64,000 nucleotides of DNA from Alphaproteobacteria bacterium (GTDB lineage: Bacteria; Pseudomonadota; Alphaproteobacteria; Ferrovibrionales; Ferrovibrionaceae). This document shows positions 2,411 to 5,962 of this stretch, piece after piece (position 1 is the first letter of the stretch; every line of letters begins with the position of its first letter). Location of the stretch: contig CANJGB010000005.1 in NCBI GenBank assembly GCA_947473805.1, positions 1-64,000 of the forward strand, written 5' to 3'. The position numbers and the translations under genes are program-made. Under the pieces are notes generated by a model, which saw nothing but the letters and a program-made list of their open reading frames with translations, did no database searches and was not told the origin of the DNA.

Positions 2411-2668
2411 TTAACGCCGGTCGTCGATCCGCAGTTCGAATTCGCCACTGATGTGGCGCTGGAACGTCGCCTCGATCAGCTTGAACAGCATGGGTGGCGG
2501 CACCAGGCAGGCGCCGTCGGCGGCGTCGCAGCTCAGGTTGGTCACGTCGAGGCGCAGGTCGATGCGATCCATGCGCGTATCGACCTTCACCAGGATCAGA
2601 TCGGCGCCATCGCCGCGCACCAGGGCGCGCGCATCCTCGACCGCCGCCTGAACCACCTTCTCGTCCAT
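2411..2668 (-). CDS. Small protein with weak NifU-domain-like pattern, third gene of UGSC operon
   Basis: An 85-aa protein starting 2 bp after the stop of the 355-aa gene. The ATG at 2668 is preferred over an upstream in-frame start that would overlap that gene by about 100 bp. The strand pattern GADLILVKVD...IDLRLD, followed by SCDAADGACL and a helix LFKLIEATFQRHISG, resembles the layout of NifU C-terminal domains (acidic strand, strand, cysteine turn, helix). The two cysteines are spaced C-x7-C, not the CxxC of iron-sulfur NifU domains. The resemblance is inference from pattern only. Translation coupled to the selenoprotein operon argues for a joint role. Confidence 0.7.
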   Translation of the reverse strand: MDEKVVQAAVEDARALVRGDGADLILVKVDTRMDRIDLRLDVTNLSCDAADGACLVPPPMLFKLIEATFQRHISGEFELRIDDRR

Positions 2669-2670
2669 CG

Positions 2671-3738
2671 TCACTTCTCCTCGTGCCTGTAAGGCACCAC
2701 GCTTTGCATTTCGCTGTCGCACCACGAATGCAAAATCATCGCGTGCAGGTTGCCGAGGCCGCCGCACACGACGGGTACGAACTGGGCGGGCCGGTTGGCC
2801 ATGTAGACGCGGCCCCTGTCATCGACGCGGTTCTTCTTGCGCAGGATCGACTGGTTGTCCGCGCGCCAGAGATCGATCGGCTGCCACGCATGTTCGTGGA
2901 AATAGGCCTGCAGGTCCTCGATGTTCGGGAACACCTTGCCCATGCGGTCGGCCCAGATCGGGTTGATGCAGATCACCAGCTGGCCGGTCTCGCCCGTGGG
3001 GCCGAGGTACCAATTGGCCATCGGGAAGGCCATGCTCTTCGCCAGCAGATAGGCGAGGTCCTTGGCGTCATCCGTGTTAGTGTCGGCGACAGGGAAATTG
3101 CCCTTTCCCGCATGTGCCGTCACGACGTCCTGGCTGGCATCGAAGCCGCGCCGCTGGGCCAGCGACGGCCAGGGCGAACGCTCCTCCCACTCGCCGAAGC
3201 ACTGGCCGAACCGGGCGGCCTGGCCGAATACCGTGCGGCTGGTTTCGCCGGCGCGCTGGCCGCCGATATTGCGCAGGCACAGCGACAGGGCGCGGCCGAT
3301 GGTCATCGAGCCGCGGCCCGCCGCACCGCCGAGACAGCCGGCGCGGTAGTCGACGCCGAGGTCGTCGCGGCCGGGGCCGTTGACGATCAGCATCGGGAAC
3401 ACGCTGGACGTCGTGGTGAGGATCGCGAACGGATTGAACTCGGCCCGCAGCACCGCCTCGACGGCGGCGATAACGTGCGGGAAGGCCTTGGCCTGGCAGC
3501 CCGCCATGACCGCGTTGATCGCCACCAGTTCGACGGTGCAGAGGCCGTATTTCGGCGGCAGCGCGCCCAGCACATGGTCGGCCGGATAGGGCGTCGCCGC
3601 CAGCATGGCGCGGATGCGCGCATCGGTCGGCGGGATGAGCGGCGCGCCATCGCCCCACTTCTCGGCCAGCGACAGCTCGTAAAATGCCTCGAAATCGTCG
3701 TCGATCTCGATGGCGTCGGCCGTCAGCGCGACGGTCAC
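2671..3738 (-). CDS. Conserved protein of unknown function, second gene of UGSC selenoprotein operon
   Basis: A 355-aa soluble protein without signal peptide or membrane segments. I do not recognise the domain. It opens with a helical stretch (DDDFEAFYELSLAEKWGDG) and continues with PLIPPTD; a glycine/cysteine-rich centre GVDYRAGCLGGAAGRGSMTI is followed by several more cysteines toward the C-terminus. Its GTG start overlaps the TGA stop of the selenoprotein gene in a GTGA junction, so translation is probably coupled. The next gene begins 2 bp after its stop. The tight coupling suggests a partner or substrate-handling protein of the UGSC protein. Function is not assigned. Confidence 0.8.
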   Translation of the reverse strand: MTVALTADAIEIDDDFEAFYELSLAEKWGDGAPLIPPTDARIRAMLAATPYPADHVLGALPPKYGLCTVELVAINAVMAGCQAKAFPHVIAAVEAVLRAEFNPFAILTTTSSVFPMLIVNGPGRDDLGVDYRAGCLGGAAGRGSMTIGRALSLCLRNIGGQRAGETSRTVFGQAARFGQCFGEWEERSPWPSLAQRRGFDASQDVVTAHAGKGNFPVADTNTDDAKDLAYLLAKSMAFPMANWYLGPTGETGQLVICINPIWADRMGKVFPNIEDLQAYFHEHAWQPIDLWRADNQSILRKKNRVDDRGRVYMANRPAQFVPVVCGGLGNLHAMILHSWCDSEMQSVVPYRHEEK

Positions 3739-4280
3739 GGCGTCACCCCCAGCAGGGCAAGGAACTTCGGGTAAAATTCCCTGGCAATCTCGCGCAGTTC
3801 GTCATCGGGCCGGCCTTCCAACGGGTACGGGAAGACCTGAATCTTCAGGTCAGGATGGCCGAGGAATACGCTCATGTTCTTCCCATGACTCAGGAACTCG
3901 TCGCAGATCGCGGCGATGGCAGGCTTCTTCAACATTTCGACGCGAACCGCGTCGTGCACCGACCAGGAGGTGCAGGAGCCTCAGGTACCCAGGCCGACGA
4001 CGGCGCAATCGACGTCGGCGGCCCAGCGATCTATGTCGGCATTGGTCCGGATGCCCTCGGCGCCGGTGCGCTCGCCGACCTCAATCACGACCGGGATGGC
4101 GCCATCGCGTGCCAGCCATTCGGCCCACAGGCCGCTGATCAGCATCCACGACCGCCAGGCGCCCTCGTGGCGCAGGCCGACGCGGGTACCCTTGAGCGGC
4201 CGGTTCAACGTGAAAGTCGGCGCGGCCTTTTGCTCGCGCGGCTTGGCGGTTGGCCGGCGGATGGTGATTCGCTGGTTCAT
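3735..4280 (-). CDS. UGSC family selenoprotein (in-frame TGA read as selenocysteine)
   Basis: Two open frames, 3981-4280 and 3735-3980, are in the same register and separated by a single TGA at 3981-3983. Reading it as Sec gives a 181-aa protein with ...VVGLGT-U-GSCTSWSVHDA..., exactly the U-G-S-C motif that names this selenoprotein family; Sec is residue 100. Coding character continues without a break after the TGA through CDEFLSHGKNMSVFLGHPD to a normal stop. The ATG at 4280 has GGGAG 7 bp upstream. U-x-x-C resembles a thioredoxin-type redox pair, so a redox role is plausible, but the reaction is unknown. Two strong hairpins follow the TGA. Sec machinery (selA, selB, selC, selD) is not in this window. 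The alternative is a nonsense mutation, which the exact motif makes unlikely. Confidence 0.88.
3938..3974 (-). promoter_or_regulatory. Candidate bacterial SECIS: two hairpins just after the Sec TGA
   Basis: Downstream of the TGA in the mRNA, hairpin A pairs TGCACC with GGTGCA around the loop TCCTGGTC (3955-3974). It is directly followed by hairpin B, where CGACGCG pairs perfectly with CGCGTCG around GTT (3938-3954). Bacterial SECIS elements are short stem-loops within the coding region, with the apical loop roughly 16-37 nt from the UGA and G/U bases in the loop that SelB reads. Hairpin A starts early but carries GGTC, as in the E. coli fdhF loop. Hairpin B has a loop opening with GU at the far limit. 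Which one serves cannot be decided by eye. Confidence 0.5.
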
Positions 4281-4442: not shown

Positions 4443-5219
4443 ATGTTCAAGCGTCTCGCAGCATGGTGCGCGGTCTTGGCCGTGCCGGTTTTCCTTCTCT
4501 TGGCGATGCCCGCGCGGGCCGCCGAGACGGTCGATGTCGAGCTGGTCCTGGCGGTCGATATTTCGGGGTCCATCGACTCGTACGAGTTCGACCTGCAGCG
4601 CAAAGGTTATTCCAAGGCGTTCCTGGACCCGCGGGTGATGGACGCCATCCGCGCCAACCAGCTGCAGCGCATCGCCGTCACCATGGTCGAATGGTCGGGC
4701 AACGAGAACCAGGAGCAGATCGTGCCCTGGATGCTGGTCAAGGATGCCGCCAGCGCCATGGCCTTCGCCGAGGCGGTGCTGAAACCGGGGCGGGGGCCGG
4801 GCCGGCGCACCTCGATCAGCGGCGGCATCGATTTTTCGATGAGGCTGTTCGAGAACAGTCCCTATGCCGGCCAGCGTCGGGTGATCGATGTCTCGGGCGA
4901 CGGCGCCAACAATTCCGGCCGGCCGGCCGAGGCAGCCCGCGACGATGCGGTAAAGGCGGGCGTCACCATCAACGGCCTGGCCATCCTGAACGACCGGCCC
5001 AATCCGGGCGGGTTCGGCGGATTCGGCTATGGCGCCGAGTGGACCGGGCCGCTGGACGAGTATTACGCCGACAAGGTGATCGGCGGCGTTGGCTCGTTCA
5101 TGATCAGCGTCAACGATTTCGAGGCTTTCGAGCGGGCCGTCGTGCAGAAGCTGGTGCGCGAGATCGCCGGGATCATCGTCACGCCGGCCAACGGGCCGGC
5201 CGGACTCGCCGCGCCTTGA
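4443..5219 (+). CDS. DUF1194 secreted VWA-like protein, copy 1
   Basis: A 258-aa exported protein. A signal peptide (residues 1-27, ending AMPARA) is followed by VDVELVLAVDISGSIDSYEF, where DISGS is a metal-ion-dependent adhesion site motif of von Willebrand A folds. RRTSISGGIDFSM and VIDVSGDGANNSG supply the other expected MIDAS loops. DUF1194 proteins are common in alphaproteobacteria and presumed periplasmic; their partners are unknown. The ATG at 4443 is the only start giving the signal peptide. The stop overlaps the start of a close paralogue, so the pair is one transcription and translation unit. Confidence 0.9.
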   Translation: MFKRLAAWCAVLAVPVFLLLAMPARAAETVDVELVLAVDISGSIDSYEFDLQRKGYSKAFLDPRVMDAIRANQLQRIAVTMVEWSGNENQEQIVPWMLVKDAASAMAFAEAVLKPGRGPGRRTSISGGIDFSMRLFENSPYAGQRRVIDVSGDGANNSGRPAEAARDDAVKAGVTINGLAILNDRPNPGGFGGFGYGAEWTGPLDEYYADKVIGGVGSFMISVNDFEAFERAVVQKLVREIAGIIVTPANGPAGLAAP

Positions 5220-5962
5220 AGGCGGTCCGGCGCCTGATCCTCGCTTTGGCGGTCGCCCTGCTGCCCGCCCTGCCGGCGGTCGCCGCCGAAAAGGTGGATG
5301 TCGAACTGGTCCTGGCCGTCGATATTTCCGGCTCGATCGATTCCTACGAGTTCGACCTGCAACGCAAGGGCTACGCAAATGCCATGCGCGACCCGCGCGT
5401 GATGGATGCCATAAGAGCCAATCAGCGGCAGCGTATCGCCATCACCATGGTCGAATGGTCGGGCGTCGAAACCCAGGTCCAGATCGTGCCATGGATGCTG
5501 GTCAAGGATGCCGCCAGCGCCAATGCCGTCGCCGAGGCCATCCTGGCGCCGCCCCGCAGTGGCGGGCGCTGGACCTCGATCAGCGGCGGGATCGACTATT
5601 CGATGAAGATGTTCGAAAGCAGCCCGTTCACGGGCGAGCGCCGTGTGATCGACGTGTCGGGCGACGGGATCAACAATTCCGGCCGCCTGCCCGAGGAGGC
5701 GCGCGACGACGCGGTCAGGGCGGGAGTGACGGTCAATGGCCTGGCGATTCTGAATGACCGGCCGAACCCGTTTAGCGGCTATTACCAGCAGACCGCCGTG
5801 CCGCTGGACGCGTATTACGCCGACCGGGTGATCGGCGGCGTTGGCGCCTTCCTGATCAGCACCAACGATTTCGAGGGGTTCGAGCGGGCGGTCGTGCAGA
5901 AGCTGGTCCGCGAAATAGCCGGCCTCGACGTGAGGCCGGCCGGTGGATTCGCGGGACGCTAA
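5216..5962 (+). CDS. DUF1194 secreted VWA-like protein, copy 2
   Basis: A 248-aa paralogue of the preceding gene with the same order of motifs: signal peptide ending ALPAVAA, VDISGSIDSYEF, WTSISGGIDYSMK and VIDVSGDGINNSG. Most blocks are identical or nearly so, so this is a tandem duplication with drift in the surface loops (for example NPFSGYYQQ in place of NPGGFGGFGYG). No ATG or GTG precedes the signal peptide. The TTG at 5216-5218, overlapping the TGA of copy 1 (TTGA), is the likely start, which implies translational coupling. Two related binders made in equal amounts may form a heterodimer; that is inference. Confidence 0.88.
   Translation: MKAVRRLILALAVALLPALPAVAAEKVDVELVLAVDISGSIDSYEFDLQRKGYANAMRDPRVMDAIRANQRQRIAITMVEWSGVETQVQIVPWMLVKDAASANAVAEAILAPPRSGGRWTSISGGIDYSMKMFESSPFTGERRVIDVSGDGINNSGRLPEEARDDAVRAGVTVNGLAILNDRPNPFSGYYQQTAVPLDAYYADRVIGGVGAFLISTNDFEGFERAVVQKLVREIAGLDVRPAGGFAGR

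Follow-up and report, generated by a model that had tools for sequence, protein, structure and literature searches.

A divergent UGSC-family gene with an in-frame TGA, its partner gene and a distant relationship to PrdB and GrdB

The stretch of DNA analyzed here (64,000 nucleotides of contig C5 of the host genome G000, hereafter the window) carries on its reverse strand a gene of the UGSC family that is interrupted by a TGA at codon 100. On the basis of sequence comparisons, this codon is very probably decoded as selenocysteine (Sec). The gene overlaps that of an obligate partner protein, and the family is distantly related to the selenoproteins PrdB and GrdB; an earlier note, made from the sequence, recognized the interrupted frame and overlooked both the partner and this relationship. 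These two features, together with an odd SECIS hairpin, make this copy of interest within one of the commonest selenoprotein families of natural waters (PMC2398784).

Reading frame and family membership

The gene and its internal codon are located as follows:
3738..4280, (-) strand: UGSC family gene, putative selenoprotein, 181 codons, ATG start at 4280, stop TGA at 3735-3737.
3981..3983, (-) strand: in-frame TGA, proposed selenocysteine codon 100 (U-G-S-C), from the sequence and from column comparison across the class loci.

As the earlier note had proposed, the frames 3981-4280 and 3735-3980 lie in register with the TGA as their sole separator, and the 181-codon frame is interrupted nowhere else. 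Reading this TGA as U yields 181 residues with U at position 100 (...VVGLGTUGSCTSWSVHDAV...), where codons 100-103 (TGA GGC TCC TGC) give U-G-S-C at the conserved [U/C]-G-S-C column. The coding signal persists downstream of the TGA, as judged from the GC content at second (0.40) and third (0.80) codon positions.

The joined protein was assigned to the Pfam family PF24696 (UGSC) with 110.3 bits against a cut-off of 25 bits, the domain covering residues 7-178 (profile positions 2-171 of 172) on both sides of the TGA, a match well outside what chance would give. The same comparison with the NCBIfam model NF041046 gave 69.1 bits, under its curated cut-off of 125 bits. The UGSC identity suggested by the motif was thus upheld by Pfam and not by NCBIfam, and we regard the protein as a divergent member belonging to the wider Pfam family only, outside the NCBIfam equivalog. 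UGSC-containing selenoproteins were described in 2008 from the GOS metagenome, with 255 sequences in that ocean survey (PMC2398784), so the window protein is a new member of a known family, placed in a divergent subfamily. A 2026 review counts UGSC among the selenoprotein families with functions largely uncharacterised (PMC13188914).

Selenocysteine decoding in the host and across the class

The host genome (58 contigs, 95% complete) encodes the full bacterial set of SelA (PF03841, 535 bits), SelB (438.7 bits), tRNA-Sec (87.7 bits, anticodon tca, also found by ARAGORN) and SelD, the last as an NDH-SelD fusion. The prediction that the host would be a selenocysteine user was borne out by this search for selA, selB, selC and selD. 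All four are grouped on contig 9, where another UGSC gene of the Sec type, together with its partner, adjoins the cluster within a few kb; this second gene has a 9-bp SECIS in the canonical register. The order in this locus (L021, G000:C9 5596-15021) is selA, selB, tRNA-Sec and the NDH/selD fusion, then a TctC receptor gene and this further UGSC-partner pair, an arrangement which suggests that UGSC ranks among the main clients of the host Sec system. Two Cys-type UGSC-partner fusions are found elsewhere in the genome. A molybdopterin enzyme on contig 9 was considered as a Sec formate dehydrogenase and dropped, as its NirB/NirD-like neighbours, read by eye, suggest nitrate assimilation.

A class-wide search detected UGSC in 38 of 385 genomes, in which 96 loci were read. 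The motif codon is a single TGA in 90 of these and Cys in the other six. A strict SelB search was positive for 33 of the 35 genomes with a TGA copy versus 21 of the 350 others (Fisher 5e-31). As for the two exceptions, SelB lies in pieces at contig ends in one (G352), which has a tRNA-Sec of 79 bits, and the other genome (G028) is 77% complete. In G340, which holds a Cys copy, SelB and tRNA-Sec both fell under the cut-offs.

A partner-based genome scan retrieved 17 loci. The nearest of them (partner identity 0.67-0.71) are Cys forms from a Myxococcota MAG, Acidimicrobiia, uncultured actinobacteria and Yinghuangia; further ones, in Actinomycetota and Betaproteobacteria MAGs, are Sec forms. The nearest relatives of the window copy (L115-L119 and L122) are all Cys forms that run full-length through the motif position. 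In line with a hallmark of selenoproteins, these and other loci supply homologues of full length that have Cys at the Sec position, and they continue past the position of the TGA rather than ending at it. The nearest one (L115) is 61% identical before codon 100 and 68% after it. In the tree the window branch stands beside the Cys clade with weak to modest support, which leaves three histories for the TGA: a retained Sec, a return from Cys to Sec, or a nonsense mutation. Returns of this kind are documented as a common route (PMC1794560). The exact position of the TGA, the intact downstream half and a host that decodes Sec favour Sec in the window copy.

Hairpins after the TGA and alternative readings

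In the family, the SECIS is a hairpin after the UGA with an apical loop containing GU about 19 nt downstream. It was found in 78 of 97 Sec loci and in none of 16 Cys loci, and its stem shows compensatory changes on both sides (e.g., C-G in 72 loci and G-C in 22). The window copy lacks this element, as C:C, G:G and U:U mismatches fall in that stem register. Two other hairpins are predicted instead:
3938..3954, (-) strand: candidate SECIS hairpin, weak, 7 bp stem CGACGCG/CGCGUCG, loop GUU, 33 nt past the UGA, -9.8 kcal/mol.
3955..3974, (-) strand: second hairpin, UGCACC/GGUGCA, loop UCCUGGUC, between the UGA and the +33 hairpin, from predicted folds.

The +33 hairpin satisfies the published constraints of the bacterial SECIS model that served as our yardstick (PMC13188914), as do 34% of synonymous recodings; of all such recodings, 13% are equally stable. 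The second hairpin alone is no better than shuffles, and an Rfam search around the TGA returned chance matches only. The SECIS is thus the weakest link in the case for Sec: the frame, the family and the host machinery of the hidden selenoprotein described in the earlier note all held, but Sec decoding of the window copy is probable rather than certain, because the family SECIS is absent from its normal register. The copy offers a natural test of how far a SECIS may sit from its UGA. The Cys relative L115 retains most of the family SECIS stem after its Cys codon, with one C:C mismatch and the loop GCG, a remnant-like structure that suggests an ancestor which used Sec.

The off-register SECIS, a +33 hairpin no better than recodings and the Cys forms of the nearest relatives together leave room for another origin of the TGA: in a Cys-form UGSC gene, the codon of the active-site Cys may have suffered a recent nonsense mutation or been misread in sequencing, in which case the window copy would be broken and the two frames its pieces. 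The Cys codon of those relatives (TGC) is one change from TGA, and the window branch falls among them, with weak support. Nevertheless, among some 180 codons the stop would have struck precisely where 90 of 96 relatives have TGA, in a host that decodes Sec and owns another intact Sec UGSC gene. Moreover, no frameshift or decay follows the TGA, the C-terminal part being closer to L115 than the part before it, and the gene still overlaps its partner at an intact GTGA junction. We therefore consider this explanation improbable. Read-through as Trp or another near-cognate amino acid would equally leave the frame open past the TGA, and the inserted residue is not fixed by the sequence alone; yet the column holds Cys and never Trp in relatives, and a host with SelB and tRNA-Sec makes such read-through very unlikely indeed. 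The least credible option, two separate short genes in register by accident, reflects where mechanical ORF callers split the gene and is already refuted by the single Pfam domain spanning both halves and by Cys homologues that are all single full-length proteins.

With Sec as the preferred reading, UGA codon 100 would be read by tRNA-Sec and SelB, which would put a selenol where a helix begins, with a conserved Cys three residues further on (U-x-x-C).

Partner gene, fold and comparison with known systems

Two further genes follow UGSC in the same cassette:
2671..3738, (-) strand: partner protein gene, 355 aa, GTG start overlapping the UGSC stop (GTGA), no named family.
2411..2668, (-) strand: small NifU-like protein gene, third of the cassette, 85 aa, with C-x6-C here and CxxC in most relatives.

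The partner matched no Pfam or NCBIfam family. With an iterated profile, its homologues were found adjacent or fused to UGSC in 93 of the 96 class loci (fused in about 20), and two of the three partner-less loci sit on incomplete stretches. When the class was searched with an alignment of the partner, exactly the 38 of 385 genomes that carry UGSC were retrieved. The partner is obligate: UGSC never occurs without it in the genomes searched. Its invariant residues (window numbering) are D30, G31, M78, G80, G121, R149, N157, E183 and G198. No catalytic motif was identifiable in the protein. Across the phylum, a search for its close relatives yielded its own genome only, and a search of plasmid DNA returned no match. 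A fusion of UGSC to a second domain, named Unknown_1, was already noted in 2008 (PMC2398784), and the partner probably corresponds to that domain. A second partner-like gene lies directly downstream of the first in several loci (L024, L026, L079, L081, L084, L086, L094, L099 and others), and is incomplete in most of the stretches read.

The NifU-like protein scored 12.4 bits against PF01106, under the cut-off. Its homologues adjoin the UGSC-partner pair in L115-L119 and L122, and also the Cys fusion L019 of the host genome. Hand-picked neighbours of UGSC loci are of catabolic types, namely luciferase-like monooxygenases, CoA transferases, acyl-CoA ligases, amidohydrolases and TauD/PhyH dioxygenases; none besides the partner recurs among these loci, where ORF picking is crude owing to GC-rich genomes. 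Upstream of the UGSC gene, on the forward strand, the window holds two similar tandem genes (4443-5219 and approximately 5220-5962) with secretion-signal-like starts, the first of which belongs to DUF1194 (PF06707).

An AlphaFold2 model of UGSC from a 50-sequence alignment (pLDDT 88) predicts a five-stranded Rossmann/flavodoxin-like domain of alternating beta-alpha order, in which residue 100 closely follows strand 92-98 and opens helix 101-116. The best PDB matches of this model (TIR, GTPase and lumazine synthase, TM ~0.45) indicate a general fold likeness only. For the fusion (pLDDT 84.5, pTM 0.87), the Rossmann half alone found PDB fold matches and the partner half none. Sequence searches of the PDB with the UGSC and fusion profiles found nothing. 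A thioredoxin-like fold had been proposed for UGSC (PMC2398784); the predicted beta-alpha order departs from that topology, and together with the PrdB/GrdB link it argues against the published guess.

Profile alignment (hhalign) of UGSC with 17 PrdB/GRDB-like Sec proteins of the same class reached 89% probability (E 2e-6) with Sec aligned on Sec. With Cys columns masked the value was 68%, and reversed or column-shuffled controls stayed at or below 0.4%. UGSC relatives match PrdB, GrdH, GrdB and GrdF weakly, eight of them hitting NCBIfam PrdB (best 2e-4), while the window protein itself gave no PrdB/GRDB hit. Likewise, the partner matched neither of the pyruvoyl-bearing subunits PrdA and GrdE in Pfam or NCBIfam. 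On these profile comparisons, UGSC is a distant relative of PrdB and GrdB, which amounts to remote homology and not to superfamily membership. The class also contains uncharacterised PrdB/GRDB-like selenoproteins with the motif U-P-x-C or U-P-x-x (L132-L151), comprising about 70 PrdB-model matches, all under the cut-off and nearly all with one in-frame TGA, in Sec-decoding genomes.

GrdB and PrdB work with a second subunit, and their Sec cleaves a C-N bond reductively. UGSC resembles them in its anatomy (Sec at a helix start followed by a resolving Cys at +3, a second protein that always accompanies it, multiple copies in a genome and catabolic neighbours), and for this reason we favour, tentatively and at somewhat less than even confidence, a two-subunit enzyme of selenium-dependent reductive chemistry formed by UGSC and the protein that the overlapping gene encodes. 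In such an enzyme, the partner subunit would hold a small organic substrate, in which Sec, acting as a nucleophile, would cleave a bond reductively; a selenenyl-sulfide would then form between Sec and Cys103, to be reset by a thiol reductant. As the partner has no identifiable catalytic motif and no PDB fold match, this chemistry is proposed by analogy only. PrdB has been described as a GrdB homologue (PMC13188914), and the breaking of the C-F bond in fluoroacetate has been linked to a GrdB-like pair (PMC10838667), so the fold is able to act on substrates of other kinds. A broader proposal, possible though rather unlikely, would place UGSC with its partner next to glycine reductase and proline reductase as a third type of two-subunit reductase that depends on selenium. 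Genomes of Alphaproteobacteria and of other phyla would then hold many copies, diversified for different substrates within catabolic gene clusters, and the window copy would be a Cys-to-Sec return with its hairpin in a new position. The obligate partner and the kinship with PrdB and GrdB recast what was an unknown redox protein as an enzyme of two subunits that can be put to the test.

Among known systems, the window protein shares with the UGSC family (PF24696/NF041046) its domain, U-G-S-C motif, length and Sec/Cys alternation, but its identity to each of the other 95 class loci in the comparison stays at or below 33%, and it differs by its separate partner gene, NifU-like third gene and SECIS off the usual register. 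With thioredoxin-like UxxC selenoproteins UGSC has the U-x-x-C redox motif in common, whereas its predicted fold is different. Compared with PrdB of D-proline reductase and GrdB/GrdH/GrdF of glycine, betaine and sarcosine reductase (TIGR04483, PF07355), UGSC is shorter, its homology is seen only by profile comparison and weak NCBIfam hits, and its partner family matches no named subunit; what it appears to share with them is the strand-Sec-helix-strand core, the Sec columns and an obligate second subunit.
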